A DNA stretch of 64,000 bases from IMG/VR virus record IMGVR_UViG_3300020182_002648, positions 82,810 through 146,809 of that record, one strand, 5' to 3'. Of the stretch, positions 18,220 to 64,000 are shown in pieces (position 1 is the stretch's first letter; each line of letters opens with the position of its first letter). Under the pieces are notes generated by a model, which was not told where the DNA came from, did not search any database, and saw nothing but the letters and a program-made list of their open reading frames with translations. Made by a program: the position numbers and the translations under genes. The DNA comes from a virus.

Positions 18220-18227
18220 TACACTTA

Positions 18228-19016: not shown

Positions 19017-19022
19017 ATATAT

Positions 19023-19030
19023 TATTTATT
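19023..19030 (-). promoter_or_regulatory. T4-type late promoter box inside glycan operon
   Basis: AATAAATA, 6 bases before the ATG at 19016. Would let the downstream half of the operon be expressed late. Confidence 0.5.
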
Positions 19031-23300: not shown

Positions 23301-24312
23301 GACGATAATGATTCACGTCTGTGATCTTCTCACCTGGCTCAGGATTCGGCTTGCATGCGGTCACTTGCTTCTCGATACCATCACATATGTTATAATACTT
23401 ACAACTCATACACTCAACTGGCTTGACGTAATCCTCTTCACGTGGTTTACGCGCTGCATCATAAGCCATGTCTATCTTCTCTTCATGACTGTACTGTTTT
23501 GATACGTCAACACTGTAATCATAAATCTCTTTGTTCCAATCATATCTATCATAAATATGTTGATATTGATTGCATACATACTTCTCATATCCTTTCATGT
23601 AACAATAGGGTGTGTATCTAACGTTTATATATCGTACGTGATGCTTTATGTTATCGATACAAATTTTAATATTGTCCGTTACCTCCGTATAATCTATAGC
23701 ATCCGCAAACTTGTTATTTACCCAATAATTTAGAGTCAAGAAATTAACTTCTAATGGGTTTAACCTTTTGATAACCTCGTGATAACTCTTGAGACCTTCA
23801 CAATTTCTTTGATACACTGTACAGTTTACTCTCACTACCATGTCATGAGCATGAGCTAGTTCGATTGCCTGGTTAATCTTCTTCCAGGCACCCTTCCGGC
23901 GGACAATCTCATCATGGCTTTCCTCATCATATCCATGAACACTGAACATTATCTCTTTGAGTCCGCGCTCCTTGCTCTTCAATAAGAATTTCTCACGAGC
24001 AAATGCCCATCCATTACTCAATGTACTTATGTTACTGAATCTTGTATTACAGTAATCTAGTATATCAAACCATTGCTTATGCACGCTGCTCTCTCCGCCA
24101 GATAAATCAACCTCGTCAATACCGTATTTGTGGAGTATATCTATACGTCTCTTTATTTCATCAAAATCTGTCACTTGATCGAGCATGCCTTGGTAATAAC
24201 AAAACTCACAGTCATAATTACAGAACGTACCAGTGTCCAGCTTGGCACGGTTACATCTAGGAGTGGTATAATCTTTTCGTAGTAGTACGGTGCTGAACTT
24301 GTTGCAATTCAC
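23281..24312 (-). CDS. Radical SAM/SPASM protein, first gene of operon, 343 aa, GTG start
   Basis: Cluster motif CNYDCEFC (Cys 31, 35, 38), DLSGGESSVH as SAM-binding motif, and C-terminal CMSCKYYNICDG with further Cys, a SPASM-type end. The initiation codon is GTG, chosen because it lies 5 bases after a consensus TATAAT box; the encoded protein start (MNCNKFSTVLLRK) also fits the domain. It heads the operon reading to 10355. Confidence 0.87.
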   Translation of the reverse strand: MNCNKFSTVLLRKDYTTPRCNRAKLDTGTFCNYDCEFCYYQGMLDQVTDFDEIKRRIDILHKYGIDEVDLSGGESSVHKQWFDILDYCNTRFSNISTLSNGWAFAREKFLLKSKERGLKEIMFSVHGYDEESHDEIVRRKGAWKKINQAIELAHAHDMVVRVNCTVYQRNCEGLKSYHEVIKRLNPLEVNFLTLNYWVNNKFADAIDYTEVTDNIKICIDNIKHHVRYINVRYTPYCYMKGYEKYVCNQYQHIYDRYDWNKEIYDYSVDVSKQYSHEEKIDMAYDAARKPREEDYVKPVECMSCKYYNICDGIEKQVTACKPNPEPGEKITDVNHYRHGMYDE

Positions 24313-31021: not shown

Positions 31022-31516
31022 ATGCACGAGCAATTATTAGAACTAGCTGACTCTCCACCGGACTTAGAGCAGTACACACCTTACGTTCAATATGGACCAC
31101 CAGTTTTAATTTATGGTGTCCCTATCAAGAATAGCTATGATCATGAGAGGTTGACTCTCAATGAGAGTTTAGAACCCAAAAGATTGAGAGTTGGTACTGA
31201 TTGCTTTTATGGCTTTATATTGCAACCGACACGATTGATGAGCAAGGTGTGTAGTGTTGCAACTAGTGTGCCGATGGATCACCCAGACTGTGTCAATATG
31301 TATAAGAAGAGACTCGCCATGTGTGAATTGACATGTGACAATTGTTGGGCTCACTTGAGTGAAAATATTTTTCCTATTGATGCGAATAATTTACCTCTCT
31401 TAGCTATAAATAGTCGGTACATGCGGATGGCGAACCCCATGCCACTACAATCAACTCGCACCAAACTTCCCTGGTTCACACAACACGCACAAATGAAAAT
31501 TTTTATCCTCAAATAA
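31022..31516 (+). CDS. Cys-rich hypothetical protein, 164 aa
   Basis: Unrecognised. Has a Cys group (CELTCDNCWAH) that could bind zinc. Its stop overlaps the nrdA start (TAATG), so it is translated with and probably linked to ribonucleotide reductase expression. Confidence 0.68.
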   Translation: MHEQLLELADSPPDLEQYTPYVQYGPPVLIYGVPIKNSYDHERLTLNESLEPKRLRVGTDCFYGFILQPTRLMSKVCSVATSVPMDHPDCVNMYKKRLAMCELTCDNCWAHLSENIFPIDANNLPLLAINSRYMRMANPMPLQSTRTKLPWFTQHAQMKIFILK

Positions 31517-33156
31517 TGAACGTAAAGAAACGTAACAACAAAACAGAAGAATTTAACGAACAGAAAATTCGCGCTTGTATCGAGAGATGCTGCGTCGATC
31601 CTGAAGGAAATGTATACCCCGGGGTCACAGCTGATACTATAGTGTTTAATGCTAAGATCAAACTGTATGATGGTATAACAACTCAAGAGATCGATGACAG
31701 TATAGTCAAGAGCGCTCGTAGCATGATTGAGCAAGAGCCTAACTACAAGTTTGTTGCTGCCAAGTTGTTGTTAAACACCATATACAAAGAAGTGTTCAAC
31801 ACTGGTGTTGATGGTGATGCGTTTGAATTACAATATCGTACCAGCTTCATTGTGAATCTCAAGAAACTGGTGAAAGCAGGTATCTTGCACAAAGACATGG
31901 CCAAGTTTGATCTTAACAAGTTGTCGAGTCATTTGAAAATTGAGAGAGACAACAATTTCGAATATTTAGGTATTCAGACTATCTATGATAGATATCTGCA
32001 TCATATTGATGAACAGAAAATGGAGGCTCCTCAGGCATTCTGGATGAGAGTCGCCATGGGACTGGCATTAGGTGAAGCTAAGGAAGATAGAGTCGAGTGG
32101 GCTTTGAAGTTCTATGATCAATTGAGCAGTTTCAATTGGATGAGCAGCACTCCTACATTGTTTAATAGTGGCGGGACGTTCAGTCAGCTGAGCAGTTGTT
32201 TCCTCAACACATTCGAAGACAGTATTGTGGGTATATTTGATGGCTTGTTACAAGAGGCTCTCAAGAACAAATATTCAGGTGGGTTGGGTATGGACATGAC
32301 CAACTTCAGAGCCACAAACAGTTATATCAAGGGTACAAATGGAGAGACACAAGGCGCTGTATACTTCTGGAAGCTGTATGGTGACATGCTCACTGCTGTC
32401 AATCAAGGTGGCAAGAGAAGAGGAGCCGGATGTGCTTACTTAGAGACTTGGCATGCTGATATTGAAGACTTTATTCAATTGCGGAAGAACACAGGAGATG
32501 AACGCAAGCGCGCTCATGATATGAACACAGCTAACTGGATTCCTGATCTGTTTCTCAAATGCGTCAATGAGGACAAGCCATGGTATTTGTTCACACCCAA
32601 TGAGACTCCTGATCTTCATGATTTATATGGTAAGGATTTTGAGAAGAGGTACTATGAGTATGTCAAGAAAGGTAAAGCAGGAGAGCTCAGAGTGTTTAGA
32701 GAGGTTCAAGCTAAGGATCTGTGGAAGAAAATGCTTAGATCTCTATTCGAGACTGGTCATCCATGGATCACTTTCAAAGACTCATGCAATCTGAGAAGCC
32801 CTCAACAACATGCTGGTGTGGTTCACAGCAGTAACCTTTGTGTAGTGGGTGATACAGAGATAGATTGTATCATAGATGGTCGTAACAGTGTTGTACGTAT
32901 GGATGAACTTGTTGATCTACATAACAGTGGTAAACGATGTGAGACAATGTCATATAACGTCGATACACAAGAGTATGAATATAAGCTAATAACTGATGCT
33001 GCTATGACGAACGACAACGCAGAGATCCTAGAGATTGAGGATTGTACCTCCGGTAAGGTCATCAGATGTACTGCTGATCACAAGATATACACAACCAACC
33101 GTGGGTATGTACCTGCCGGAGAGCTAACAGAGGAGGATATTTTAGTAATATCGTAA
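31516..33156 (+). CDS. nrdA: NrdA N-terminal part fused to N-half of a split intein, 546 aa
   Basis: First half of the class I ribonucleotide reductase large subunit, which makes deoxyribonucleotides. Residues 1-441 are extein: an ATP-cone-like start (KRNNKTEEFNEQKIRACIER) then the barrel, ending HSSNL. Residues 442-546 are the N-intein: block A CVVGDTEI and block B RCTADHKIYT with the TxxH motif, ending in a stop. The break falls between the residues equivalent to E. coli Leu438 and catalytic Cys439. The ATG overlaps the preceding stop. Needs trans-splicing with 33979-35205. Confidence 0.92.
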   Translation: MNVKKRNNKTEEFNEQKIRACIERCCVDPEGNVYPGVTADTIVFNAKIKLYDGITTQEIDDSIVKSARSMIEQEPNYKFVAAKLLLNTIYKEVFNTGVDGDAFELQYRTSFIVNLKKLVKAGILHKDMAKFDLNKLSSHLKIERDNNFEYLGIQTIYDRYLHHIDEQKMEAPQAFWMRVAMGLALGEAKEDRVEWALKFYDQLSSFNWMSSTPTLFNSGGTFSQLSSCFLNTFEDSIVGIFDGLLQEALKNKYSGGLGMDMTNFRATNSYIKGTNGETQGAVYFWKLYGDMLTAVNQGGKRRGAGCAYLETWHADIEDFIQLRKNTGDERKRAHDMNTANWIPDLFLKCVNEDKPWYLFTPNETPDLHDLYGKDFEKRYYEYVKKGKAGELRVFREVQAKDLWKKMLRSLFETGHPWITFKDSCNLRSPQQHAGVVHSSNLCVVGDTEIDCIIDGRNSVVRMDELVDLHNSGKRCETMSYNVDTQEYEYKLITDAAMTNDNAEILEIEDCTSGKVIRCTADHKIYTTNRGYVPAGELTEEDILVIS

Positions 33157-33164
33157 AAGTATTC

Positions 33165-33208
33165 AGGGGTATCTCATAAGTAGTTATATGACGCTTAGAG
33201 ATACCCCT
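33165..33208 (+). promoter_or_regulatory. Hairpin around endonuclease start with embedded late promoter
   Basis: Perfect 11-base inverted repeat: AGGGGTATCTC (33165-33175) and GAGATACCCCT (33198-33208). The 22-base loop contains a late box CATAAGTA (33175-33182, its C shared with the stem) and, 5 bases later, the endonuclease ATG at 33188. Transcripts from upstream would fold the start into the hairpin; late transcripts would start inside it and lack the left arm. Confidence 0.75.
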
Positions 33209-33976
33209 AAACACTATGTATATATGCATACAATAACTACAACAAACAAGTCCTATATAGGATACACATCAAAGAGTGTATCTGAGAGGTTGAAGGGTCA
33301 TTATAAGAATGCTTTCATTAATAACCTACAAGCCCATTGGCATAAAGCTTTAAGAAAGCACGGGATGGGAGCAGTTAAGACTAAGTTACTAGCAGAAGCT
33401 GATTCTAGAGAAGAGGGATTGAAACTTGAAATGGAATTTATCGAGAAATTTGATACTTATAAGAATGGTTATAATCAAACACTTGGAGGTACCGGAGGTG
33501 TTACTATAGACAGGGAACGCGATCCAGAGAAGTGGCAAGCATGGTATGACAAGAAGTTAAAACATGTACAAGGAGCAAACAATCCTAGTTATTCTGGATA
33601 CACTGATGACCAGCTGGTCGACATCGCGGTTGGTTTATATTTAGACAATAACAGATTGTTCACGTACGGTATATGGAAGAGACATTGCCAGTCGTCAAAG
33701 ACTCCACAGAGTTTCTCTAAAATGAGATTCAATGGAGAAGGGTTCAGAGGTTTCAAGAGAATGATCAAACTAGAATTGACAAATAGAGGTATTGATTATA
33801 CTGATGATAGTTTTACATACAAGAGAACTGCTGAGCATAATGCCAATTTGAGAAACAACAATATAGGAAAAAAGTGGTTCACAAACGGGACGAAGAGGTT
33901 AATGACATATCAAGATGACCCGCGGGTATCCGGTTGGAAGAACGGAAGGACTTTAAACAAGACAAACACAATTTAA
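33188..33976 (+). CDS. Free-standing GIY-YIG homing endonuclease, 262 aa
   Basis: GIY-YIG nuclease domain in residues 9-100: YVYMHTI and KSYIGYT form the two name strands, Arg in VSERLKGHY and Glu in LKLEMEFIEKFDT are the catalytic pair, and GYNQTLGG completes the fold. The C-terminal half is likely DNA binding, with a KKWFTNGTKR motif common in phage endonucleases. It lies between the two intein halves and probably cuts intein-free nrdA to spread the element. Confidence 0.9.
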   Translation: MTLRDTPKHYVYMHTITTTNKSYIGYTSKSVSERLKGHYKNAFINNLQAHWHKALRKHGMGAVKTKLLAEADSREEGLKLEMEFIEKFDTYKNGYNQTLGGTGGVTIDRERDPEKWQAWYDKKLKHVQGANNPSYSGYTDDQLVDIAVGLYLDNNRLFTYGIWKRHCQSSKTPQSFSKMRFNGEGFRGFKRMIKLELTNRGIDYTDDSFTYKRTAEHNANLRNNNIGKKWFTNGTKRLMTYQDDPRVSGWKNGRTLNKTNTI

Positions 33977-33978
33977 TT

Positions 33979-35205
33979 ATGATAAAAATTACAAAACTTA
34001 AACAAAAGCAACCAGTGTATGATATCACTGTAAAAGATAATCACAATTTCTTCGGAAATAATATACTAGTACACAACTGCACCGAGATCACATTAAACAC
34101 AAAAGCGACTAGCTACACAAAAACTGGCAGAAGTGTCAAGGAGTATGGAGAGACCGCTGTTTGTAATTTAGGTAGTATCAATCTGAAGAATCATTTGATT
34201 GAAGTAGATGGAAAAGTAACGTTAGACTATGACAAGCTGAAGAACACAGTGACTGTTGGTATGAGGATGTTAGATAACGTTATTGATATCAACTTCTATC
34301 CGACTGAAGAGACTCGGAGGAGCAATACTAAGCACAGACCAGTAGGCATGGGTAGCATGGGCTGGCATGATATGTTCTTGTCAATGGGCATTGAATTCGA
34401 TAGCGATGAGGCTGTCAAGTTGTCAAGCGATGTGTATGAATACATTTCATACAATGCTATATCAGCTAGTAACGATCTAGCCAAAGCCAGAGGCAAGTAT
34501 GAATCATTCGAAGGATCAGCCTGGTCACAAGGTATATTACCGATGGATAGTTATCGTGACTTGATGAAGTTACGTACTGTGCGAGCTAGCAGTCGATCCA
34601 AACTCGATTGGGACTCTCTCAGAGCGTCTGTAGTTAAGCATGGCATGCGGAACAGCAACACGATGGCCATAGCACCAACAGCCACGATTAGCTCTATTGT
34701 AGGATCAAGTCCGAGTATCGAGCCATATTACAGTGTGTTGTATGTGTACAGTACATTGAGTGGTGAGTTTACCATGGTCAATGATCACTTCGTCAAGGAC
34801 ATGAAGAAGTTAGGATTATGGTCTCAGAGGCTAATCGATGATGTGAAACGTACAGATGGTGATATCTCCAAGTTGACTGATTGGAAAATTCCAGCAGAGA
34901 TTGTGTCCAAATACCGAACAGCGTTTCAGCAGGATCAGATGAAGATGGTTGAATCTGCTGCTGCAAGGCAAAAGTGGATTGACCAGGGGGTGAGTTTAAA
35001 TCTGTACAATGACAAGTCGAGTCTCAAGTTTTTGAATGATTTGTACATGCATGCATGGGAGAACGGATTGAAGACCACATACTATCTACGCAATCGTGCT
35101 GCCAGTACAATTGAGAAGAGCACAGTTGGGTCAACTCCAGAACCAGAAAATATCACAGCATGTAGTTTGAACAGTGCCCCTGGTGAATGTGAAGCTTGTC
35201 AGTAG
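33979..35205 (+). CDS. nrdA: C-half of split intein fused to NrdA C-terminal part, 408 aa
   Basis: Residues 1-33 are the C-intein: block F VYDITVKDNHNFF and block G NNILVHN, then Cys34 as first extein residue. The extein (375 aa) begins CTEI, giving the reassembled active-site SNLCTE (N437, C439 and E441 equivalents), continues with VCNLGSINL and ends ECEACQ, the C-terminal redox Cys pair. Splicing would give an NrdA of about 816 residues. The start at 33979 is 2 bases after the endonuclease stop; the longer frame from 33934 would add unrelated residues. Confidence 0.92.
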   Translation: MIKITKLKQKQPVYDITVKDNHNFFGNNILVHNCTEITLNTKATSYTKTGRSVKEYGETAVCNLGSINLKNHLIEVDGKVTLDYDKLKNTVTVGMRMLDNVIDINFYPTEETRRSNTKHRPVGMGSMGWHDMFLSMGIEFDSDEAVKLSSDVYEYISYNAISASNDLAKARGKYESFEGSAWSQGILPMDSYRDLMKLRTVRASSRSKLDWDSLRASVVKHGMRNSNTMAIAPTATISSIVGSSPSIEPYYSVLYVYSTLSGEFTMVNDHFVKDMKKLGLWSQRLIDDVKRTDGDISKLTDWKIPAEIVSKYRTAFQQDQMKMVESAAARQKWIDQGVSLNLYNDKSSLKFLNDLYMHAWENGLKTTYYLRNRAASTIEKSTVGSTPEPENITACSLNSAPGECEACQ

Positions 35206-36974: not shown

Positions 36975-38192
36975 ATGATCGAGAAAATAAAGAATATACT
37001 TAAATTTAAAAATGATGTAAGCCTGCCTGACATAGAGGTCAACGAGGTGTCACAGACTTTATCTCAATCCATTGGATGGGGATTAACACAAAACAACATA
37101 CCACGGGCTTGGACAGAGTCTAAGGGCAAAGGAGTTGTCGTGGCTGTGATTGACACAGGCATGCCCATTCATCCAGATATAGGGGACAATGCTATTGAAG
37201 GTAAATCCTTCATACCTGGTGAGAACATATATGACAACCATGGACATCAAACTCATTGCGTTGGTATCATATGTGCCAAGAATAATGAGTTTGGAATGGT
37301 CGGAGTTGCTCCGGAATCTAAATGTGTTTGTATCAAGGGATTGAGCAACAGTGGCAGTGGCAGTTCTAAAGGAATCGCAGATGCACTAGATTATTGTTTG
37401 GAAATCAAGCCGGATATCGTGAGCATGAGTCTAGGTAGTTCCAGAGCAGACCCAGCCATGCATGAGGCTATCAAGCGACTGGTCAAGGCTGGTATAGTTG
37501 TAGTATGCGCCGCTGGCAATAGCGCTGCAGCTGGTGTCAATTATCCTGGAGCATTTCCAGAGACTATAGCTATTGGTTCACATGAAGTTGATGGTAAGCT
37601 GTCATGGTTTAGTAGTGTAGGTACTCAAGTCGATTGGGCTGCACCTGGAGGTAAAATATACAGCACGTACACCAAAGGACGATATGCAGAGCTGAGCGGA
37701 ACTTCAATGGCATGTCCATTTGTAGCTGGTGTTCTAGCTCTATTGATATCTAAATGGAAGAAGGACGGTAGAGAATACACTGTGGATGATGTTTGGTTGT
37801 CGTTACTTTCCAATACTATAGACAAGTTTACACCTGGTGAAGACAATCACTTTGGTAATGGCATCATTGATGTGTTGTCTCTTTTAGATGCTGGGCCGGA
37901 ACCTGAACCAACACCGGAACCTGAACCAACACCGGAACCAACACCGGAACCAACACCGGAACCAACACCGGAACCTGAACCAACACCGGAACCAAAACCC
38001 GGGGTATGGATGAGACAACGGACATGGGTTACTATTGGGTTGTTTTTACTAACCACAATAGGCATACTGTCACTAATAAATCACCACATGTCTATTGACG
38101 TTCTAGAAGAGATCGATTGGGATCAACGACTAGAGGAGGACTTGGAGAGCAGAGGACTAACGGAAGAGCAATGGCGCTCTATGAGGCGTTAA
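36975..38192 (+). CDS. Subtilisin-like protease with Pro-Glu linker and membrane anchor, 405 aa
   Basis: S8 serine protease: Asp60 in AVIDTG, His91 in HGHQTH, oxyanion Asn182 in AAGN and Ser244 in SGTSMACP. No classical signal peptide. Residues about 312-345 are Pro-Glu-Thr repeats (EPTPEPEPTPEP) forming a rigid spacer, then a membrane segment (TIGLFLLTTIGILSLI) and a charged tail. Could process virion or host envelope proteins. The end overlaps the convergent pyrophosphatase gene by 14 bases. Confidence 0.88.
   Translation: MIEKIKNILKFKNDVSLPDIEVNEVSQTLSQSIGWGLTQNNIPRAWTESKGKGVVVAVIDTGMPIHPDIGDNAIEGKSFIPGENIYDNHGHQTHCVGIICAKNNEFGMVGVAPESKCVCIKGLSNSGSGSSKGIADALDYCLEIKPDIVSMSLGSSRADPAMHEAIKRLVKAGIVVVCAAGNSAAAGVNYPGAFPETIAIGSHEVDGKLSWFSSVGTQVDWAAPGGKIYSTYTKGRYAELSGTSMACPFVAGVLALLISKWKKDGREYTVDDVWLSLLSNTIDKFTPGEDNHFGNGIIDVLSLLDAGPEPEPTPEPEPTPEPTPEPTPEPTPEPEPTPEPKPGVWMRQRTWVTIGLFLLTTIGILSLINHHMSIDVLEEIDWDQRLEEDLESRGLTEEQWRSMRR
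37893..37999 (+). repeat. Pro-Glu-Thr codon repeat in subtilase linker
   Basis: Short tandem repeats of GAACCAACACCG-type units encoding EPTP / EPEPTP between the protease domain and the membrane anchor. Confidence 0.8.
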
Positions 38193-38688
38193 GAGAGTCT
38201 TTTTTGATAATTTTAAGTGCTGCTTCGCGATCTAACCAGTCGTGAACCAGCACTTGTTTGTTGGACAAATCCTTGTAGTGTTGAAAGAAATTCTTAGTCA
38301 CATCTAAGAATAACCGGCTGACTTGATGTATGTCGGTTTTTCTTTTAACTGCGGATGTAGGCACGCCTAAGATCTTGTAATCCTTATCACCATCGTCATC
38401 CATATCTAACACTCCTATCACGCGACACTCTACTAATGTGGTTCTCTCTATGGGAGCATTAGCATACACCAGGATGTCTAGTGGGTCGCCATCAGCACCT
38501 AATGTGTTAGGTATAAACCCGTAATTGGCAGGGTAGACCATGGCGCTCGTTAAGCATCTATCCAGTCTAAATATCTCTAAATCTTTATCATATTCATACT
38601 TCGTACTGGTTCCTTTGGGTATCTCTACAATAGCGTTTACTATGTCCGGGGAGTCCTTATGTAGGGGAATCTTGTACAGGTTTATCAT
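38179..38688 (-). CDS. ppa: Inorganic pyrophosphatase, family I, 169 aa
   Basis: Soluble family I pyrophosphatase that hydrolyses pyrophosphate to two phosphates. Signature DGDPLDILV, plus VEIPKGTSTKYEYDKD at the start and DMDDDGDKDYKILGV, which hold the Mg-binding acids. Removing pyrophosphate would favour DNA synthesis and also ATP sulfurylase and nucleotidyltransferase reactions in the adjacent sugar/sulfate island. A late box lies 5 bases upstream of the start. Confidence 0.9.
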   Translation of the reverse strand: MINLYKIPLHKDSPDIVNAIVEIPKGTSTKYEYDKDLEIFRLDRCLTSAMVYPANYGFIPNTLGADGDPLDILVYANAPIERTTLVECRVIGVLDMDDDGDKDYKILGVPTSAVKRKTDIHQVSRLFLDVTKNFFQHYKDLSNKQVLVHDWLDREAALKIIKKDSLNAS

Positions 38689-40853: not shown

Positions 40854-41015
40854 TTACATTTTTGTTATAATCCCATGCATTTTGTTTTTGCAGTGAGTCT
40901 TGTTTGTTGTTTTGGGAGTATCTAATTGTAATCCAGTTTTTTTAGCCAGCACATATGCAGCTGCATATTGTATCAGTCGGTTTCCAAGGCGACCTCGATA
41001 TTTCATATCAATCAT
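40854..41015 (-). pseudogene. Truncated GT11-like fucosyltransferase fragment, 53 aa
   Basis: Short frame that begins like alpha-1,2-fucosyltransferases (GT11): RGRLGNRLIQYAAAYVLAKK matches their GGLGNQxFQYAxAxxLAxK start. It then runs out after about 30 residues in a Lys/Asn/Thr-rich tail, so some 240 residues of the enzyme are missing. The ATG overlaps the upstream stop (ATGA). Best read as the remnant of a deleted gene, though a small peptide may still be made. Confidence 0.6.
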
Positions 41016-41980
41016 AACTTGCTATCTAATCCTTTTAAACTTAAAATTTCAGTAGATATAAATTTATTATCAATTTTATTTATATCAAAATCATTTTTAT
41101 ATATTTCCACGAGCTTTGCTAACAGAAACTCCGAGAATCCATATGCAGCACAATTGTGTTTAAAGAACATATCATGAAATTTGCGAATATTGTTCTTCAT
41201 ATACAATACACGTTCTTTGTCTTCTAATAACAATGTAACTTGTTGATGTATATGTTCCATGCTATGTTCTCGTAAATCAAATCTTAACACGTAATCGTCG
41301 ACATTCGTAAATATATTTTCCCAGCCATAGTCATTCATAGAATTGATCATAATCGGAATACACCCACATCTTATTACATCAAAAAATGTATGTGTCCAAA
41401 TTCTATCACCACGTAACATATACACGACATCTGATTTGGATAAATTATTTAAATAAGTTTCATATGTTCCTGTTTTGAATCCATCTCTGTAGATCTTCTC
41501 TTTAAATAAAGAAACATCGAATCTTTTGTCATCTACTTTGTTGTAAAAAGAAAGAACGTTACCTCGTGTTTCATGAGTGTTGTTACCAGACCAAAAAACT
41601 TTATTGTGAAAAGTTTCATTTTTAATTGTTTTATTGTCGCCAAACTTAGGGCCGAGAGGAGTCGGTATGACATAAGGAATATCGCATAAATCGTTTGTTG
41701 AAAAACAAAAGTTACTAAAGTTTGGACGAGGTGAAATTGCATTATCAACACAAAATCCTTCACGGCACTTCAACAAACTTAAGTTTACATATTTGCGAGG
41801 ATTGCGAAGAATAGAAACCTCATTGGGTTTTACTTTGTTTGAATCATATGCATGCCAGTGCTTTTCCGTAAAATACAAATCGGCATCTTTAGATGAGCCA
41901 TCAACGAAATTGATTTTTTTATGAAAAGTGTCGCAAAACCGGTTTTGCTTTAATCCAAAATCTGTTGCTATTGTTATCAT
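41012..41980 (-). CDS. Exostosin-like glycosyltransferase, 322 aa
   Basis: The C-terminal half matches the exostosin (GT47) domain: VYMLRGDRIWTHTFFDVIRCG followed by CIPIMINSMNDYGWENIF, the donor-binding part. The N-terminal half (ATDFGLKQNRFCDTFHKK) is not clear. Predicted to build a glycan backbone that the sulfotransferases could modify. Confidence 0.72.
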   Translation of the reverse strand: MITIATDFGLKQNRFCDTFHKKINFVDGSSKDADLYFTEKHWHAYDSNKVKPNEVSILRNPRKYVNLSLLKCREGFCVDNAISPRPNFSNFCFSTNDLCDIPYVIPTPLGPKFGDNKTIKNETFHNKVFWSGNNTHETRGNVLSFYNKVDDKRFDVSLFKEKIYRDGFKTGTYETYLNNLSKSDVVYMLRGDRIWTHTFFDVIRCGCIPIMINSMNDYGWENIFTNVDDYVLRFDLREHSMEHIHQQVTLLLEDKERVLYMKNNIRKFHDMFFKHNCAAYGFSEFLLAKLVEIYKNDFDINKIDNKFISTEILSLKGLDSKL

Positions 41981-41981
41981 A

Positions 41982-42701
41982 TTATAGTAATTTATTTAAG
42001 AAATCATCATATTGTTGTATAAAAGGAAATTCACTCAATAATTTGCTCTGTTCCTCATTGCTGAGTTTTTTCTTCCACTCATAAATGTCTGTGGTTCTTT
42101 TGTGAGATTTTAACTTACCCGCTTCGATTAAATCGCTTTTATCTTCAATCGGTGCGAAAGAGTATTTCCATTTCTCGTAAGTTTTATCGTATACAGAAGC
42201 CATGTCAAGAGTTTGTAACAACTCTTTTAAAAATTCACTAAAATTACCTATCATGAACTCATACGGTAATATAACTTTGTTGGTTGCCGGCAAGTTCCAA
42301 AATTTTTCAATTTTCTTTGAATTAATGGGGGTAACTCTATTGATATAATTCGCAAGTCCTTCTTTTTGAATTTTTTGCCGTTTCGACTCAAATTGTTCTT
42401 GTGTAAAACCAGCAGGGCACTTATGAGTGTATCCGAACGAATAAAACATAGATATGGTAATACCAATAGGATTGCGAGGTATGAAAATAAAATTGTCATT
42501 AGCGAGATTAACACCAACAAGTTTTGCCGGATTTGCTGGATTGATCAATCGCTCAAATCGCAACTTCATTAAGCCTGAATCATTATTAACCACAATATCT
42601 TCTCCCACTTTGATTCGCGGAAGATCGAAAACACTCTTCAAAATTTTTGAAACTATTGTTGATCCGCACTTGTGCGGTGCATGTATTATATATTTTTTCA
42701 T
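41982..42701 (-). CDS. Sulfotransferase-like protein, 239 aa
   Basis: PAPS-binding loop at the very start (IIHAPHKCGSTIVSKIL) and FIPRNPIGITISMFYSFG matching the 3'-phosphate-binding RxxxxxxxS region. Predicted to transfer sulfate from PAPS to a sugar. I take the start at 42701 because the loop must be near the N-terminus; a longer reading from 42764 overlaps the upstream gene. Confidence 0.75.
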   Translation of the reverse strand: MKKYIIHAPHKCGSTIVSKILKSVFDLPRIKVGEDIVVNNDSGLMKLRFERLINPANPAKLVGVNLANDNFIFIPRNPIGITISMFYSFGYTHKCPAGFTQEQFESKRQKIQKEGLANYINRVTPINSKKIEKFWNLPATNKVILPYEFMIGNFSEFLKELLQTLDMASVYDKTYEKWKYSFAPIEDKSDLIEAGKLKSHKRTTDIYEWKKKLSNEEQSKLLSEFPFIQQYDDFLNKLL

Positions 42702-42747
42702 TTTTGTTTTTTTTTCGTTCCCTAAGAAAGTATACTTTTTTATTTTG

Positions 42748-43380
42748 CTAAAATTTATATCCAAAGTAATTTATGTCCCACTCAAATAATTTTGAAACCT
42801 TTTCTTTGGTCTCGTCGTTGTAGTATTTTCTATAATCATATTCTACCCGGTTAGTATTATGCTTTTGGTGTGAGAGATTATAATCAACAATTCCCAGTTT
42901 ATTAAAAACGACCTTCGCATCGTGTTCTATGTTTTCTTGTCTTATGAAGTGATCTATACATAGTTCGTTGTTATAATGAAACATTGATTTATATGTGTTG
43001 TTACGGGTAAAATGATCTCTCTCTAGATTATGACAAACCCAATCATTAAATGTAGATGTTACTCCACGATGAACCGATATATGATGGTAAAAAGAGACAA
43101 CCCTATCAAAAGGATTTCTTATAACTGTAAATATATACCATTCCTTTCTTTTAAAACAATCTTCAGAATACCTGTCATTAATAAATTTAACAAATTGAGG
43201 TAGTGCTCCATGTACAGATAGATAATAATTTATGCCTTCGTTAGATAAATCCATACCAAACGGCTCTAGTTCTTTATTTCCATCGAAGGATCCATACTGA
43301 CGTCGCAATACCGCCCTAACACTTGTACCAGCACATTTAGGTGGATGTATGAACATGAATTTTTCTGAATTATTAATCAT
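42748..43380 (-). CDS. Sulfotransferase family 2-like protein, 210 aa
   Basis: FMFIHPPKCAGTSVRAVL is the 5'-phosphosulfate loop and FTVIRNPFDRVVSFYHH the 3'-phosphate motif (RNPxxRxxSxY) of carbohydrate sulfotransferases. The C-terminus is typical too. Overlaps the glycosyltransferase stop by ATGA. Confidence 0.85.
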   Translation of the reverse strand: MINNSEKFMFIHPPKCAGTSVRAVLRRQYGSFDGNKELEPFGMDLSNEGINYYLSVHGALPQFVKFINDRYSEDCFKRKEWYIFTVIRNPFDRVVSFYHHISVHRGVTSTFNDWVCHNLERDHFTRNNTYKSMFHYNNELCIDHFIRQENIEHDAKVVFNKLGIVDYNLSHQKHNTNRVEYDYRKYYNDETKEKVSKLFEWDINYFGYKF

Positions 43381-44521: not shown

Positions 44522-45445
44522 TCAAGAATTACAATATCTCTCCCATAATTTTCTGTCCCAATATGTGCGGTCAAGAAAAGTTTGTTGTGTCTGATCGTCA
44601 AGTTCGTTGAATTCAAGTTTGATCTTGTTAGGTGTGTTGTTCCGCCAAACATCAACAACCTCTACCTCCACATCTGATCTCATGACACCGTATGCTCCGT
44701 GAAACACCTGGTCAATCAATTGGTCTGTGTTTTGTATGCTTTTGACTATCCAATGCCTCAAGTATTGATCACATGCGGTCAGGTGTTTAGGTTCAATTAT
44801 GGTATCATCTGATAGATTCAACAAATTGCGAATGAACCAGCTGTCCTCTAGTTCATCTGAGTTGATATACTTGATGAAATCTTCTGCTTGAATGGCTCCA
44901 TGATTTGGTTCATGTGCGCTGGCATCTGTGGTCAAATAGTTGTACATCGATTGAGTTCTGCTCCATGGATCTCTCAGGATGGTGAAATTGAGCAGATGTT
45001 CACGTCCAGTGGCTTGTTGAATCAATTGCAAGGCTTGTCTGTGCTGACTGTAACCATGAGAGTAATCATCTGGCATGTTTGAAGCACCATCACCCACTGG
45101 ATCGACACTCACAGAAAAAACCTCAATCTCACCAGATTCAATCGCCTCAACAAAATGTACTATATCCACCCAATCGGAATTTCCGTCTCCACTTGGGTTG
45201 CTTTTGAAGTGTTCATTGTTGATATGTACATCTGTCGGAGTGTATATCACGCAGGTCAATTGCTTGTGACCTCCTACGTTCACAATACTTCTTCGAATTC
45301 GATCAGACGTCCAACCCGGGACAGATCTAGATCCCATCTCTATACTGTACACACGACACAACATCATCATCCAACCCAAAGTGTACGTACCGGCGTTTTT
45401 TGCTATGTGGTAGAACACTGGAAGTAGTGATGGTGATGAATTCAT
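44522..45445 (-). CDS. Sulfotransferase-like protein, 307 aa
   Basis: HIAKNAGTYTLGWMM corresponds to the PAPS 5' loop and FTILRDPWSRTQSMYNYL to the 3' motif. Larger than the other two. The insertion between the motifs (about residues 60-150) is unlike the standard family and may define a particular acceptor. Confidence 0.72.
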   Translation of the reverse strand: MNSSPSLLPVFYHIAKNAGTYTLGWMMMLCRVYSIEMGSRSVPGWTSDRIRRSIVNVGGHKQLTCVIYTPTDVHINNEHFKSNPSGDGNSDWVDIVHFVEAIESGEIEVFSVSVDPVGDGASNMPDDYSHGYSQHRQALQLIQQATGREHLLNFTILRDPWSRTQSMYNYLTTDASAHEPNHGAIQAEDFIKYINSDELEDSWFIRNLLNLSDDTIIEPKHLTACDQYLRHWIVKSIQNTDQLIDQVFHGAYGVMRSDVEVEVVDVWRNNTPNKIKLEFNELDDQTQQTFLDRTYWDRKLWERYCNS

Positions 45446-46233
45446 GTCTTTTGATGTAAGATAATAGTATATGGATGTTTGGCTAATATATCCTTCTCAG
45501 AAATACCAGAATCGCAAGGGAGAGAGTAGTTAGCTATTATGTTTGTGTCTATCACTTGTGACAAGTATTTAGCTCCCTCAGGTGAATTAACATAATACCA
45601 TATGGCTATATCATAATTTAAGCGTGCATACGCTTTCTTGTGTATATATCTATACAACAATTCCTTGCTACCTTTCATAATGTCATATAATTCATCACAA
45701 TTCTTGTATAACGCGATTCCATTAAGATGGTATCTCCACTCGCTATCCGGTAATTTCTGTTTACCCTTGTATCTACTACCACCTATAATAAACTCCTTCA
45801 TATTACAGTAATGGACTAGTCCATCTAACCAATATTCACTCATTGGCCTTGAATCTGTTTCTATGACCATAACGAAATCATGAGATTTAGATTTAAGATA
45901 ATCGAACGTTCTATAGAAAGATTGATTAGGCCCGTTTGATTGTCCTAATTCATGTTTAACATCTACTTTATCATCGTGCGTGTATATATCTTCTTCAGCA
46001 GGGATATTACAGTTGTGTATATCTAGAGAGTTGACACTCTTATTGCTCTTGATGTAATCAAGCTGACTCGAATCGACATCAGTGTTAAGTGATATGATAA
46101 TATCGATCAACCGGTTCTCTGAAACACTCTCAACATATCTATCTATACACTCTTTAACATCACCAGATATGAGCTCTGATTTTGTAGTGATTAGAACTAA
46201 CGCGATCTTGTACTCCTCAGATCGTAACGGCAT
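45442..46233 (-). CDS. Glycosyltransferase-like protein, 263 aa
   Basis: GT-A-like layout: IALVLITTKSELISGDVKEC start and HDFVMVIETDSRPMSEYWL with an ExD acidic motif. The later RYHLNGIALYKNCDELYD resembles acceptor-side motifs of phage glycosyltransferases. Overlaps the sulfotransferase start by ATGA. Confidence 0.65.
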   Translation of the reverse strand: MPLRSEEYKIALVLITTKSELISGDVKECIDRYVESVSENRLIDIIISLNTDVDSSQLDYIKSNKSVNSLDIHNCNIPAEEDIYTHDDKVDVKHELGQSNGPNQSFYRTFDYLKSKSHDFVMVIETDSRPMSEYWLDGLVHYCNMKEFIIGGSRYKGKQKLPDSEWRYHLNGIALYKNCDELYDIMKGSKELLYRYIHKKAYARLNYDIAIWYYVNSPEGAKYLSQVIDTNIIANYSLPCDSGISEKDILAKHPYTIILHQKT

Positions 46234-47060
46234 TACTCCGGACGTTTCCCGGTTGGTTTCCCGTCCTGACCTATGATACCAGCTCTGATCTTAGTGGCAG
46301 ACACTTCTTGTAACTCTTTGCTCAATTCCAATTGCTCGATGTTGTATCCAACACCGCGACCGTAAAACACATCCATTATGTTAGGTAGTTCGATAACCTT
46401 GATCTTGTCCCCAAATTCCACGCATGCAGCGTGTATCTCCGCTTTGACTTTCTCAAAGTCATATGGGTTACTGTCATCAATTCCACCAACGTCTCTAAGA
46501 GCTATGCAGCATTGACCTGTACGTTTCACAGCTTCCGCCACAAGAGTTTTGTGACCAACATGAAAAGGTTGATACCTACCAATTAACAATGCTGTAGGAG
46601 CTTGATTGTCCCACTTCTCGGTCTCGTAAATAGCTTCAAGAGCTTGTTCACACCACTCATCAGGTGTACCATCAGTTAAAATCAAATCTTTCTCATCCCA
46701 TCTAGCATCTTTGGTAGGATCCTCAAACATTTTGTTTGTGTCAGCGTATCTACCTTCTTCAATTCTGTTGACCCATATAACAAGATCAGGATTGAATAGC
46801 TCTCTAGCTTCTTCTGTGGGACAGCAAAAATCTGAAACTACATAACCACCACCAAGTGTGGCCCAGTCGGCAAGTTTGCCCATTCGACGTGCATGTTCAT
46901 TACGATCTTCCGGTGTGAATCCTAGATCCTTGTGGATCTCTTGCCTGATAGCATCAGCATTAAACCATACAGCTTGAAGCTTAGGAACTAGCTTTTCTGC
47001 CAACGTTGTCTTGCCTGAACCAGGAAGGCCCATGATTAAAATTTTTCGTTTTAAGCGCAT
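46233..47060 (-). CDS. APS kinase-like / nucleotidyltransferase fusion, 275 aa
   Basis: Two domains. Residues 1-150: P-loop GLPGSGKT (11-18) and KDLGFTPEDRNEHARRMGK, the hallmark of adenylylsulfate kinase, which makes PAPS from APS. Residues 155-275: cytidylyltransferase-fold domain with HVGH (167-170) and SATKIR (254-259), most like NMN adenylyltransferase / sulfurylase-type enzymes. With three sulfotransferases downstream, PAPS supply is the likely role. It starts the operon, 5 bases after a late box. Confidence 0.8.
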   Translation of the reverse strand: MRLKRKILIMGLPGSGKTTLAEKLVPKLQAVWFNADAIRQEIHKDLGFTPEDRNEHARRMGKLADWATLGGGYVVSDFCCPTEEARELFNPDLVIWVNRIEEGRYADTNKMFEDPTKDARWDEKDLILTDGTPDEWCEQALEAIYETEKWDNQAPTALLIGRYQPFHVGHKTLVAEAVKRTGQCCIALRDVGGIDDSNPYDFEKVKAEIHAACVEFGDKIKVIELPNIMDVFYGRGVGYNIEQLELSKELQEVSATKIRAGIIGQDGKPTGKRPE

Positions 47061-47697: not shown

Positions 47698-47723
47698 ATG
47701 TAAAAACCTTGTTTTATAGTGGC
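47688..47723. repeat. Direct repeat copy 1 (about 35 bases)
   Basis: GGG, T-run, ATGTAAAAACC, TTGTTTTATAGTGGC. Nearly identical to 48322-48355 (differs by one T). It contains the terminator tail and the stop codon of gene 48268-47714. Confidence 0.85.
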
Positions 47724-48268
47724 TTGCCTGTATTAACGTCAAATTTATTTGGTTGAGCTGCTGGTAGTGGCTTGCCTGTATTAACGTCAAATTTATTTGG
47801 TTGAGCTGCTGGTAGTGGCTTGCCTGTATTAACGTCAAATTTATTTGGTTGAGCTGCTGGTTGAGCTGCTGGTAGTGGCTTGCCTGTATTAACGTCAAAT
47901 TTATTTGGTTGAGCTGCAGCATCGCTAGCGACGCGACGCTCATTTCGACTGACAACCTGCTTATATGTCTTATCTATCATTTGATTGTATTTATCAATGA
48001 TAGGTTTCTCCGTTGGACCTAGTTGATCATAAGTACCACCCTTCAAGTAACTTTGCATGTTTGTATCATACTGCGCGAATAGTGTCATCTGAGCAGGTGA
48101 TAATGCCTCCCACTCGACTCCTGCTTTAGTGGCATCATACCATTCGGGCATTGGTGGTAATTCCATTCCCTGGTCGGCCATCAACTTCTTTACCCCAGAG
48201 TTCCGTTGTTGGTGGTAATCCACCGAAGAATATGCCTCCCAAAGTAACCTACTATCTATATCAGTCAT
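47714..48268 (-). CDS. Late protein with C-terminal PNKFDVNTGKPLP repeats, 184 aa
   Basis: N-terminal tag MTDIDSRLLWEAYSSVD, a helical middle, and four C-terminal copies of AAQPNKFDVNTGKPLP. The tag is shared with other late genes and might direct packaging into the capsid. The start at 48268 (not 48319) is fixed by a perfect late promoter 5 bases upstream. Unrecognised otherwise; the repeats suggest a surface-exposed or binding tail. Confidence 0.7.
   Translation of the reverse strand: MTDIDSRLLWEAYSSVDYHQQRNSGVKKLMADQGMELPPMPEWYDATKAGVEWEALSPAQMTLFAQYDTNMQSYLKGGTYDQLGPTEKPIIDKYNQMIDKTYKQVVSRNERRVASDAAAQPNKFDVNTGKPLPAAQPAAQPNKFDVNTGKPLPAAQPNKFDVNTGKPLPAAQPNKFDVNTGKPL
47721..47913 (-). repeat. 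Four tandem repeats of about 48 bases
   Basis: Near-identical units encoding AAQPNKFDVNTGKPLP; one has an extra 12 bases (AAQP duplicated). The low divergence means recent expansion. Confidence 0.9.
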
Positions 48269-48273
48269 ATTTT

Positions 48274-48281
48274 TATTTATA
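48274..48281 (-). promoter_or_regulatory. T4-type late promoter box
   Basis: Perfect TATAAATA, 5 bases before the ATG at 48268. Confidence 0.65.
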
Positions 48282-48321
48282 CCCATTACAATTGAATAAC
48301 AGTTAAACTTCATGCTCAATC

Positions 48322-50302: not shown

Positions 50303-50331
50303 TTGCTATTTCTCTGTATTTATGTTATAAT
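50303..50331 (+). promoter_or_regulatory. Sigma70-like promoter for DUF1501 gene
   Basis: TTGCTA (50303-50308), 17-base spacer, TATAAT (50326-50331), 7 bases to the ATG at 50339. Confidence 0.72.
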
Positions 50332-50338
50332 TATATAT

Positions 50339-51604
50339 ATGGACGAACTCAACAGAAGACAATTTGTAACACAACTAGCAAAAACGTGCCTGGGTGTGGG
50401 TATGTTACCTCTCACGCAGAACTACATGCATGCTGATCAACTGAAAACATCACGTGTCATGGCCAAAGCGCAACATGTGATATACTTGAACATGAGTGGA
50501 GCCATGAGCCATGTGGACACATTTGATCCAAAACCAGGCACAACCAGTCAAGGACCTGTACAACCAATACAATCAAGCGCGGATGATATACAACTGTCTG
50601 AGTACTTACCGAACATAGCATCACAAATGCATAACGCAGCACTGATCAGATCTGTCAAATCAAGTCAAGGTGCACATGAACAAGCCAGTTACTTGATGCA
50701 CACCAGTTATCAAAAGAGAGGCACAATCTCGCACCCCACATTCGGCAGCTGGGTGAGCAAATTAAAGGGTAGTAAAAACACAACAATTCCCAACCACGTG
50801 AAGATCGGAGGAGGTCCTGGGCATGCTGGTTATCTAGAAGCCAAGCACGGGCCAGTACCAATTGGCAATCCAAAAGCTGGTCTGGCCAACAGCAAGCTGG
50901 CTGAATACTTAGGTACCAGTCGATTCGACCGCCGGCTCATGGTGTCATCTGCAATGAACAAGACTTTCACGGAGAGTTACCCGCAAAAGAAAGTGAGAGC
51001 ATACACTGATCTATACAAAGATGCGGTCAAGTTGATGAGAAGTACCGATTTGTTAGCGTTTGATATAGAATCTGAACCAGAGAGCATGCACGAGTTGTAT
51101 GGTGATAGTAATTTTGGTCAAGGTTGCCTGCTAGCCAGACGATTGATCGAGCATGGTGTGCGTTATGTGGAGGTGACCAGAGGAGGTTGGGACACACATG
51201 ATGATAATTTTGAAAGAGTCGCGGACAATTGCCTGGATGTTGACAATGCCGTTGGCGCGTTGCTCAGAGACCTGGACAGAAGAGGGTTGCTGAGCACCAC
51301 GCTCGTGGTGATGACTTCTGAATTTGGTCGCACTCCGGATATCAATCCCAGAGACGGTAGAGACCATTGGCCTAATGCATTCAGTGCCATGTTCGCTGGA
51401 GCTGGTATCAAAGGAGGTACATTGTATGGTAGTAGTGATGAGTTAGGCAAACGAGTTGCCGAGCATCCAACCAAACCAGAAGACCTGAATGCTACAATAG
51501 CACATTTAATGGGTATGTCCACTCTGGATATTCATTACTCACCTAGTGGCAGACCCTTCAAGGTGGCTCATGAGGGTACACCTGTTATGGATATAATCAA
51601 TTGA
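50339..51604 (+). CDS. DUF1501 protein with Tat-type signal, 421 aa
   Basis: Twin-arginine signal at the start (NRRQFVTQLAKTCLGVGML), then a DUF1501 domain, a relative of the alkaline phosphatase/sulfatase superfamily: LNMSGAMSHVDTFDPKPG, GGWDTHDDNFERV and VVMTSEFGRTPDINPRDGRDHWP are its metal-site motifs. Predicted to be exported folded to the periplasm. The family is abundant in Planctomycetes and relatives. The start is set by the promoter; 50303 would begin upstream of it. Confidence 0.82.
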   Translation: MDELNRRQFVTQLAKTCLGVGMLPLTQNYMHADQLKTSRVMAKAQHVIYLNMSGAMSHVDTFDPKPGTTSQGPVQPIQSSADDIQLSEYLPNIASQMHNAALIRSVKSSQGAHEQASYLMHTSYQKRGTISHPTFGSWVSKLKGSKNTTIPNHVKIGGGPGHAGYLEAKHGPVPIGNPKAGLANSKLAEYLGTSRFDRRLMVSSAMNKTFTESYPQKKVRAYTDLYKDAVKLMRSTDLLAFDIESEPESMHELYGDSNFGQGCLLARRLIEHGVRYVEVTRGGWDTHDDNFERVADNCLDVDNAVGALLRDLDRRGLLSTTLVVMTSEFGRTPDINPRDGRDHWPNAFSAMFAGAGIKGGTLYGSSDELGKRVAEHPTKPEDLNATIAHLMGMSTLDIHYSPSGRPFKVAHEGTPVMDIIN

Positions 51605-59240: not shown

Positions 59241-62200
59241 TTACTTGTTTTCTAATGTACTGATACGATTCTTAAGATCTTCAATTAATGCTTGTTGCTC
59301 TTGAATTGCTTTGGTTAGCACTGGAATGAGCTGAACATATTCCATCTCCAGTTTTGTGTCATCAGATTTAGGTATCATTTCAAGACTATCTTCATCTTCA
59401 GGTTGTTCATAACCGTCGATACAATCACCGGTGTCACGGACCGTCTCGGGGATTATCGGTTGAGTTGTTTGAGCTCCGAATCCTAATTTTGTTGTTGATG
59501 ATGTATCTTCTTTTAAGGTGTATGATATAGGTTTCAATTTCAACACATCACTCAAGCCGTAACTGAAATTCTCGTGGATGTCTTTCAATCTCTCATCTGA
59601 TGTCTGAGACCCTACTATGCTACCTCCGCCGGCATTAGCAGATGCAAACGAGGTTGCCATTTTCAACGTTTGGTTATCACTGTATATTATATTATTTGTA
59701 GTACTGTCCCGGCAAGTTGCTAGCCAGTAACTCCATGCATCAACCGCACCGGAAGGAGGGGATGCTTCTCTGTATAATCCAATTTCACTAACCGCGGCAC
59801 TGTTTAGATCTTCTACTCTGAAGTAATTCGCTGTGTCGTTGTATTGATATTGCTTGATGGTGTGTCGACCAGCGTTGGGATTTCCGCCGGCATTGACAGT
59901 GGTTGTTCCAAACCGGTCGACCGTCATGACTGTGTTCAAGGATTGAGTATCACCGGCTGCGGATGCAATTGTTGGGGATGCGCTGAATGTAAACTGCCCT
60001 TGAAGCAAACCTATTGCTGAAGGGTATCCAACTCCGTATGCTCGATTCGTTCCATCTGAGTGACTGTAATAGTTACTCTGAAGGTACAATTGGTCGTAAA
60101 CTGCAGACTCGTCTGAAACGCACATGAGCGTTGATGACTTACCTACCTTTAAGTTTTTGTAATAAGGATATGGTGCGTTGTGTGGTGCGTTACCAATTCC
60201 TACATTACCGAATGAGTCGATACGTAATCGCTCAGCAGCTACGTTACCTCCTTCCGTGACGAAAGCTAAATAACCATCAGCCACACTAGTGTGTGAAGAT
60301 ACAATTCTATTTACAATTCTATCAGCGTTGGTGCTAAAGTCTATAGACGCAAATGTGTTAGCTGCTGTCCCGGAATTCCGGAGGGTGATACATGAGTCTC
60401 CTCCTTGACCAAGGGCGGTTGAACTGTATAATGTTGAACTATTTCCACTGATGTCTAGTTTACTTTGAGGAGCTGTTGTGCTCAGTCCTGCATAGCCGTT
60501 GGATTTGACTAGAAATTTGAAATTCCCATCTGCGTGGACGCCAAAAACAGACTTGTTGTCTGCATTAGTTGCATCACTCCTGACGAGCAATCCGTTACCG
60601 GCAGTACCGCCTGTCCCCTTGTTGTATATTCGTGAAATCCAATCACTATCGACAACATCTTCTACAGTAAGCCTATAATTTGGAGCAGCAGTACCGATAC
60701 CTACATTGCCTTTTGATTTAACTGTGAATATAGTGCTATTGCTTGTGGAAAGGTCTCCTCTAACGTTAATAAGGTCAATTTCGTCAGCTCTAGTGGATGA
60801 ATCGATAAACAAGCCGCCAGGTGAATTATTTAACTGAGCGTTTATGCAAAATTTATGAGACGTGACTGCATTGCCAATACCTGCTGTACCGTCACCGTTC
60901 ATGACCATTATTGGGACGGCATTTGAGTTTCTTATTTGAAGTTGGTTTGAGGAATATACTGGGGTTAAGAAAAAATCTGCCGGATCAGGTGTATTGGCTG
61001 TGTTCCTTAAACGTATCTGAGATCTTGTATTATTATTACCCTCGATGTGCAGCGCGCAGTTGGGACTCGTAGTACCAATGCCTACATTATTTCGCTTTGT
61101 TATTAATACTGCAGAGCTTAAATCGGAGGCACCTACAAACAAACCAACATGATCACTTGCAGTACCATCCTCGACAATATGCACAGTGGCCGGGGCGCTT
61201 CCCCCTCCATTATAAAATTTGCTTGTCGTAACAGTATTTGAAGAGTTAACAACCTCTAAATTCGCATTAGGACTCGTAGTACCAATACCTACATTGCCGG
61301 ATGAATCAATAACCATTCTCTTATTAGCCGCGGTGGAGGAGGAAGTAGTAGTGTTCGCTGCTGTACCAAAGGTGATTTTTGTAGGACAATTCATACTACC
61401 AGTACCCCATCCGATAAATAAATTACTCTCAGTAGCACTTGATGTATGCATCATCATGTTTACTGGTTTAGAAGCATTCGTATACGCTATACCACCTATT
61501 CTAGATGATTTAAGAGCGTTATCAGTTACCCCCAAACCGTCATCACTACCTCCTAAAACCATGGTTGAAGTGTCTGCTACATCAAGTTTAAACTTAGGAC
61601 TCGTAGTACCAATACCTACATTACCACCCAAAAAGATCGCGGACGCATCACTACCTTCTTGATCTACATACAGAGTTGCTGAGGAATCACTATTACTTCT
61701 GAGCCAAGTTTGAGCCTCTGATACACGAAGTGTTCCTATGATATCTAATGGGAAACTAGGGCTCGTAGTACCAATACCTACGTTACCACCATCTTTAACA
61801 AATATTCCATTACCACCATCATCAAAGAGAGATAACCCGGACGTGTCTCTAGCCTGAACCTTATCAGTATATAGATACTTACCATCATTCAATATTACAT
61901 TCTCACTAAAATTCCAAGACTGACTTGCGTTAGACCATAATATAGTTTTATCAGTTGTTCCCTTGAGAGTTATACCTCCACCATTCGCAGTAGCGTCAGT
62001 AGGTGTGTTGATTGAGCCTATCTCAATATTCTTATCATCAACTGAAAGTGTTGTTGAGTTGATCGTCGTGGTAGTACCATTTACAGTTAATGTACCAGCT
62101 ACAACAAGATCCTGTGTACCGGTTGACCCAGTTACAGTCAAATCTTTAGTTGTGGTACCATTTGTTACCGATAAGTCTTTAGTTGTGGTCGTGTTCGTTA

Positions 62201-63569: not shown

Positions 63570-63574
63570 ACATA

Positions 63575-63582
63575 TATTTATT
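63575..63582 (-). promoter_or_regulatory. T4-type late promoter box
   Basis: AATAAATA, 5 bases before the ATG at 63569. Confidence 0.6.
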
Positions 63583-63624
63583 CTCTGGTTGGGTCTGTTC
63601 GTACACTTATGGTGATTTATTAAG

Positions 63625-63653
63625 TTGCATGTTGAAGCGCGATGTGTTATAAT
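63625..63653 (+). promoter_or_regulatory. Sigma70-like promoter, leaderless
   Basis: TTGCAT (63625-63630), 17-base spacer, TATAAT (63648-63653). An ATG at 63654 touches the box; the one at 63660 is at the usual 6-base distance. Confidence 0.72.
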
Positions 63654-63659
63654 ATGAAA

Positions 63660-64000
63660 ATGGATGTATATACAATTCCGGATTTTGTCTCTAAAGAGGA
63701 GATAGAAGCGATATACCAACAAACAAGTGTGGGTTTACAACGACCATGGACGTTCTCTGGTGATGTGATTGGACTGGGTGGCAGTAGCCGGAGTGTCCCG
63801 GGGATTTGTTTTGACATGACAGATGATATACATGTATATAAATCATGGAACCAACCAATCCGTCCGGAATTGTTCGAACCAGGGTGTGAGCTGGCGTGTG
63901 AAATACTTGATTCATTTGAATCAAGAGGATCACCAGTTGGGGTTCATGAGTTGTATCGGTTTCGGTTCAACTACCTGTTTAACAGTCTGGTGGATGGTTA
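63660..64000 (+). CDS. Possible 2OG-Fe(II) oxygenase, cut by window end
   Basis: Partial. Starts MDVYTIPDFVSKEEIEAIYQ, like phage prolyl-hydroxylase-type oxygenases (xVxxxPxFLSxEE), and reaches HELYRFRFNYLFNSLVDG, which resembles the strand before the iron-binding HxD motif. The catalytic residues lie beyond the window, so this is a moderate call. The start is fixed by the leaderless promoter. Confidence 0.5.
   Translation, partial: MDVYTIPDFVSKEEIEAIYQQTSVGLQRPWTFSGDVIGLGGSSRSVPGICFDMTDDIHVYKSWNQPIRPELFEPGCELACEILDSFESRGSPVGVHELYRFRFNYLFNSLVDG

Follow-up and report, generated by a model that had tools for sequence, protein, structure and literature searches.

A proposed compact PAPS synthase in marine phages and alphaproteobacteria: an APS-kinase-like domain joined to a minimal HxGH nucleotidyltransferase

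The window analysed here, a stretch of 64,000 nucleotides, comes from the 146.8-kb record of a marine phage. On its minus strand, at 46233-47060, lies one ORF of 275 amino acids; the plus strand there holds many stops. The ORF and its parts are as follows.

46233..47060, minus strand: bifunctional ORF of 275 aa with an ATG start, proposed to be a compact PAPS synthase; APS-kinase-like domain followed by a minimal HxGH nucleotidyltransferase
46617..47060, minus strand: kinase domain, residues 1-148, with P-loop GLPGSGKT (11-18) and the nucleotide-binding half of APS kinases (PF01583, PDB profile search, Foldseek)
46275..46601, minus strand: minimal nucleotidyltransferase domain, residues 154-262, with GRxQPxHxGH, Arg189, NP(F/Y), PN(I/V), YGRxVGY and SATxxR (PF01467, NadM by PDB profile, conserved columns)
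46551..46562, minus strand: HxGH signature HVGH, residues 167-170
46344..46364, minus strand: YGRxVGY motif, residues 233-239, a near-invariant family signature
46284..46301, minus strand: SATKIR motif, residues 254-259

The first-pass annotation had read this gene as an odd fusion of an APS kinase to an HxGH nucleotidyltransferase, with a P-loop in the N-terminal half and HVGH and SATKIR in the C-terminal half. We confirmed that the fusion is genuine: both domains pass the curated Pfam cut-offs within a single minus-strand ORF, and the three motifs fall in the halves to which they had been assigned. It is also far beyond chance, since both domains are kept in 38 relatives recovered by a scan of viral contigs. 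Only the word 'odd' has to be given up, because the protein is no one-off: it is one of a large family, some members of which are encoded by two neighbouring genes.

The N-terminal domain matched APS_kinase (PF01583) at 48.3 bits against a curated cut-off of 21.1 (E 1.4e-12), in an alignment covering only positions 5-90 of the 152 in the profile, and scored 44.5 bits with the NCBIfam equivalog-domain model TIGR00455, below its cut-off of 138.7. When a profile of the domain was searched against the PDB, APS kinases came first (1.6e-15), with non-APS kinases far behind. A Foldseek search with an AlphaFold model (mean pLDDT 84) likewise found the APS kinase fold, ranks 1-36 all being APS kinases with E down to 1.2e-7. 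The profile matches end at about residue 88, upstream of the APS-kinase cap, a region that carries conserved Arg, Lys and Phe residues (PMC13213808). By eye, the spacing across the cap region is about 17 residues shorter than in APS kinases; judged from the sequence, the cap appears shortened and most of it absent, and one aromatic (GRF/Y) may be the counterpart of the cap Phe. The family-invariant Asp36, Arg39, Phe48 and Arg53 align with an Asp, Arg, Phe and Arg of PAPSS1, which we take to be its APS-site residues D89, R92, F101 and R106. The APS-site Asn is replaced by His or Gln in the fusion family.

The C-terminal domain passed CTP_transf_like (PF01467) barely, at 21.4 bits against a curated cut-off of 21.0 (E 3e-4). 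Its best PDB match by profile was NadM (4.6e-9), but the NadM equivalog TIGR01527 (NCBIfam) gave 20.6 bits against a cut-off of 181.2. No ATP-sulfurylase match (PF01747) was present in the window genome in a profile search at E <= 0.1, and hhalign of the domain against three sulfurylases returned no significant match (3.7% probability). A structure search with this domain alone was not decisive: the matches were weak and included NadM, PPAT and pantothenate synthetase as well as ATP sulfurylase (rank 35). By these family tests the domain is neither an ATP sulfurylase (PF01747) nor a NadM enzyme. Across 41 sequences its near-invariant columns are GR-QP-H-GH, Arg189, NP, PN, YGRxVGY and SATxxR. 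Human PAPSS1 reportedly holds sulfate through R421 and R522, according to docking (PMC11697783). Compared by eye, the position equivalent to R421, four residues before HxxH, is Tyr, Phe or Trp here, with an Arg one position upstream, and the Arg of YGRxVGY could be the counterpart of R522 in sulfate binding.

Further ORFs of note lie nearby on the same strand.

45442..46233, minus strand: ORF adjoining the fusion, no Pfam family; also beside the fusion in carrier L018 (32% identity)
44522..45445, minus strand: sulfotransferase-like ORF (weak); in L018 its homologue (43% identity) lies two genes away from the fusion
42748..43380, minus strand: Sulfotransfer_2 sulfotransferase (PF03567, 3.9e-10), a probable PAPS user
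41982..42764, minus strand: ORF whose N-terminus has a sulfotransferase-like motif, HAPHKCGST; unsupported by Pfam
41012..41980, minus strand: exostosin, a GT47-type glycosyltransferase (PF03016, 1.8e-8), member of a glycan cluster
38179..38688, minus strand: inorganic pyrophosphatase (PF00719, 1.2e-49)

We did not retain the ORFs at 41982-42764 and 44522-45445 as sulfotransferases, as neither has Pfam support of its own; the L018 homologue of the latter matched PF03567 at E 0.03 only. The pyrophosphatase could pull a PPi-releasing adenylylation forward, and L008, L010 and L018 likewise encode one near the fusion.

Elsewhere in the window, a large glycan and metabolic cluster (10355-24312, minus strand) holds several radical-SAM ORFs, transketolase-like halves and sugar epimerases. 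At 31516-35205 (plus strand) nrdA, the gene for the large subunit of ribonucleotide reductase, is, by eye, apparently broken by an intein. The two intein halves are on separate ORFs, with a GIY-YIG-like ORF between them (33188-33976), an arrangement that resembles a split intein enclosing a homing endonuclease. Tandem-peptide-repeat proteins are encoded at 47714-48319 and 59241-63722 (minus strand; QPNKFDVNTGKPLPAA; SVTDSATVTNTTTTKDL). The ORF at 50303-51604 (plus strand) resembles DUF1501-type secreted proteins by eye and has homologues adjoining the fusion in L014 and L015; it might hint at the host.

Among the 38 viral relatives, about two thirds are fusions and the remainder two separate neighbouring genes. 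Whole-length relatives among 50,697 phage records were four Casjensviridae and phage DLP6. A search of the viral contigs with the Casjensviridae protein as query returned no relatives. In bacterial genomes the C-terminal domain gave hundreds of matches. Of these, the 80 best had 48-60% identity for the most part and came largely from SAR11, in which the kinase gene adjoins the nucleotidyltransferase gene; among 385 alphaproteobacteria sampled, 13 were carriers. The family extends over marine viruses, phages of Stenotrophomonas and Xanthomonas, SAR11 and other alphaproteobacteria. In a concatenated tree (whose entry L145, labelled SAR11, is the same genome as L261) the marine viral fusions stood beside fusions of Rhizobium and other alphaproteobacteria. 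In every lineage the two domains stay together, fused or adjacent.

To judge the viral context, 30 contigs with the fusion were compared with 34 that have nrdB and lack it, nrdB contigs being taken as the control because a baseplate-protein control yielded no relatives. Sulfotransfer_2 occurred in 24 of the 30 (121 copies in 2.97 Mb) as against 10 of the 34 controls (19 copies in 2.95 Mb), a density of 4.1 versus 0.64 copies per 100 kb; with near-duplicate contigs and shared lineages among them, these counts lack phylogenetic independence, and the Fisher value (6e-5) should be read as a guide only. Among contigs of 100 kb or more the figures were 12 of 13, the thirteenth having a Sulfotransfer_3, versus 5 of 10 controls, while the short split-type contigs, which are fragments, were mostly without a sulfotransferase. 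CysQ, the phosphatase that clears PAP, was encoded by 8 of the 30 contigs and by none of the 34 controls, at or near its curated equivalog cut-off, and in L006 it starts 2 nt past the fusion stop. No PF01747 sulfurylase exceeded the cut-off in 76 viral contigs, and no PAPS_reduct/CysD-type match was found in any contig with the fusion; searches of the viral contigs with PF01507 and PF13469 added little. Isolated phages present a similar picture, with different sulfotransferases. DLP6 has one PF03567 sulfotransferase (6e-9), and in the Casjensviridae a 'hypothetical' gene two genes upstream of the fusion is a Sulfotransfer_4 (PF17784, 8e-6) with close homologues in exactly the four Casjensviridae records that bear the fusion. 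Between that sulfotransferase and the fusion sits a NADAR-domain gene (L134:15056-15499, Bhz60).

The bacterial carriers extend this link. In Rhizobium sp. BK376 an uninterrupted 555-aa ORF joins Sulfotransfer_2 (21-231), APS_kinase (292-373) and CTP_transf_like (436-), in one genome and with a sequencing error at the junction possible. A second such fusion, suspected in a 480-aa open frame of G191, was rejected because that protein has the two domains only. In one alphaproteobacterial clade (G078, G251, G349, G428) the pair comes last in the run cbiX-cobA-cysI-cysH-DUF2061-kinase-nucleotidyltransferase, with CysI at 708 bits (cut-off 457) and CysH at 248-254 (cut-off 154; NCBIfam); the slot after cysIH is the usual place of cysDN(C). 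No CysD turned up in G078, which has a single PF01507 match, adjoining the pair, and one PF01747 protein away from it. Sulfotransfer_3 exceeded its cut-off in 12 of 22 cellular carriers, and G282 and G477 have sulfotransferases in the vicinity of the pair. PF01747 was found in 3 of the 22, two of which, on inspection, have it within surface-glycan clusters; G078, G079, G097 and Rhizobium BK376 also carry a PF01747 sulfurylase or CysDN. A PF01747-like gene stands beside a pyruvate-kinase-like ORF in a surface-glycan cluster of alphaproteobacterial or SAR11 sequences (L273:1793-2857 with 355-1692; L271:6117-7103 with 7100-8425). Most SAR11 copies of the pair are flanked by genes for a Rieske oxygenase and an enoyl-CoA hydratase, with a DmdA-like gene nearby, a setting that does not itself suggest sulfate. 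In HTCC9565 (L152 5123-9345) the pair sits in a conserved block near GcvT-family (DmdA-like), MTHFR-like and Rieske oxygenase genes. Linkage to PAPS-using or PAP-removing enzymes is seen in the sulfotransferase fusion, CysQ and the cysH operon.

We consider it probable that the fusion is a compact bifunctional PAPS synthase, in which the C-terminal domain takes the place of ATP sulfurylase, and that it serves the phage sulfotransferases. PAPS production is the most likely role because relatives adjoin, or are fused to, sulfur-handling enzymes. The HxGH domain of about 110 aa would adenylylate sulfate (ATP + sulfate -> APS + PPi) and the APS-kinase-like domain would then add a phosphate at the 3'-OH of APS, yielding PAPS, which cells use as sulfate donor. 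Phage-encoded sulfotransferases would consume it, probably sulfating surface glycans of the neighbouring cluster, with the pyrophosphatase clearing PPi and, in several relatives, CysQ clearing the product PAP. The data themselves establish the two domains with their conservation and their fusion or adjacency, the link to a sulfotransferase in one ORF, the cysIH operon and the co-occurrences; from these we infer sulfate as the substrate of the C-terminal domain, APS as that of the kinase and surface glycans as the target. The first-pass annotation had left three options for the C-terminal domain: a minimal sulfurylase, an NAD enzyme or a CDP-sugar enzyme. Genomic context and gene fusion favour the first; homology does not, for the domain shows none detectable to PF01747 and is nearest NadM. 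The other two are disfavoured by the sulfotransferase, CysQ and cysIH contexts and by the separate NAD genes of DLP6.

The strongest competitor, though an unlikely one, is that the host supplies APS (through CysDN or Sat) for the kinase to turn into PAPS, while the C-terminal domain binds or channels APS or adenylylates another anion. It would account for a kinase that is far more clearly APS-kinase-like than its partner is sulfurylase-like, and Rhizobium BK376 does own CysDN. Yet the domains are kept together in every lineage, no CysD turned up in G078 of the cysIH-operon clade, and the catalytic HxGH, YGRxVGY and SATxxR motifs are near-invariant. Less probable still is that the nucleotidyltransferase couples AMP or CMP to some other small group, after which the product is 3'-phosphorylated by the APS-kinase-like domain; the cytidine diphosphoramidate route of Campylobacter offers an analogue. 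There are known APS-kinase relatives that act on analogues, the apparent shortening of the cap suggests changed substrate handling and the window has a glycan-cluster setting, but sulfate is indicated by the sulfotransferase fusion, by the cysIH operon and by CysQ.

NAD salvage by a ribosylnicotinamide kinase and NMN adenylyltransferase, NadR-like with the domain order reversed, is very improbable, and we dropped NAD synthesis even though the nearest C-domain family is NadM / NMNAT-Nudix and a NADAR gene adjoins the fusion in Casjensviridae. DLP6 has a complete separate route, with an annotated nicotinamide phosphoribosyltransferase (NadV) and a confirmed NMNAT/Nudix (6.6e-98), so a second NMNAT would be unneeded; moreover, the kinase is not NadR-like, matching in the P-loop only, and the C-terminal domain is far below NadM in length. 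We give least credence of all to a nucleotide-sugar or lipid cytidylyltransferase with a sugar kinase for the glycan cluster, as suggested by the glycosyltransferase cluster that follows the gene and by the Pfam name CTP_transf_like, because the surroundings of relatives, DNA-metabolism regions or cysIH operons, have no glycan genes, and a separate TagD-like gene is present in relatives.

If the fusion is indeed a compact PAPS synthase, its reach would go beyond phages. We regard as plausible, and on balance favour, a new non-orthologous sulfate activation in which a NadM-derived adenylyltransferase of about 110 aa and a reduced APS kinase, spread across phages and alphaproteobacteria, provide PAPS for SAR11 and its viruses and take over from cysDNC in at least one clade. 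Sulfate activation is generally ascribed to two kinds of enzyme, CysDN and Sat, and our literature search found no description of this compact kinase-nucleotidyltransferase system. Genomes of SAR11, an abundant ocean bacterium, carry the pair, and many also carry sulfotransferases. As SAR11 has been described as lacking cysDNCHIJ and sat (PMC5069961), the pair may give it a sulfate-activation route. A third, much smaller sulfate-activating enzyme would alter how sulfate metabolism is read from genomes, would mean that some phages supply their own sulfate donor, apparently for glycan modification, and would offer a small PAPS-making enzyme for laboratory sulfation.

Among known systems, a homologue family over the whole length is phrog_10255 (7e-51 over the entire protein), which is named 'kinase' only, with no mention of the second domain or the sulfur context. 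The C-terminal domain shares GRxQPFHxGH, NPF/Y and SxTxxR with NadM-type NMN adenylyltransferases, its best sequence match, but is about 110 aa against 167-181, much shortened between the PxI strand and SATxIR, has the new near-invariant YGRxVGY and scores below TIGR01527. With ATP sulfurylase (Sat, PF01747) it shares the HxxH adenylyltransferase superfamily, and the GRDHAG and ISGTxxR of that enzyme resemble YGRxVGY and SATxxR by eye only; it differs in lacking the PUA domain, in a catalytic domain of about half the length and in giving no significant sequence or profile match. The N-terminal domain resembles APS kinase (CysC, PF01583) in the P-loop, the first-half motifs and the near-invariant Asp, Arg, Phe and Arg that align with PAPSS1, and departs from it in a second half missed by the models, a TIGR00455 score under the cut-off and the replaced APS-site Asn. 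Set against bifunctional PAPS synthases (animal PAPSS1/2; bacterial and fungal Sat-CysC), the fusion is about 275 rather than about 620 aa, lacks the PUA-like domain, has an apparently shortened kinase cap and carries a NadM-like adenylyltransferase where they have PF01747. It shares with them the two proposed steps and the pairing of an HxxH adenylyltransferase with an APS-kinase fold and, as in animal PAPSS1/2, the kinase comes first.
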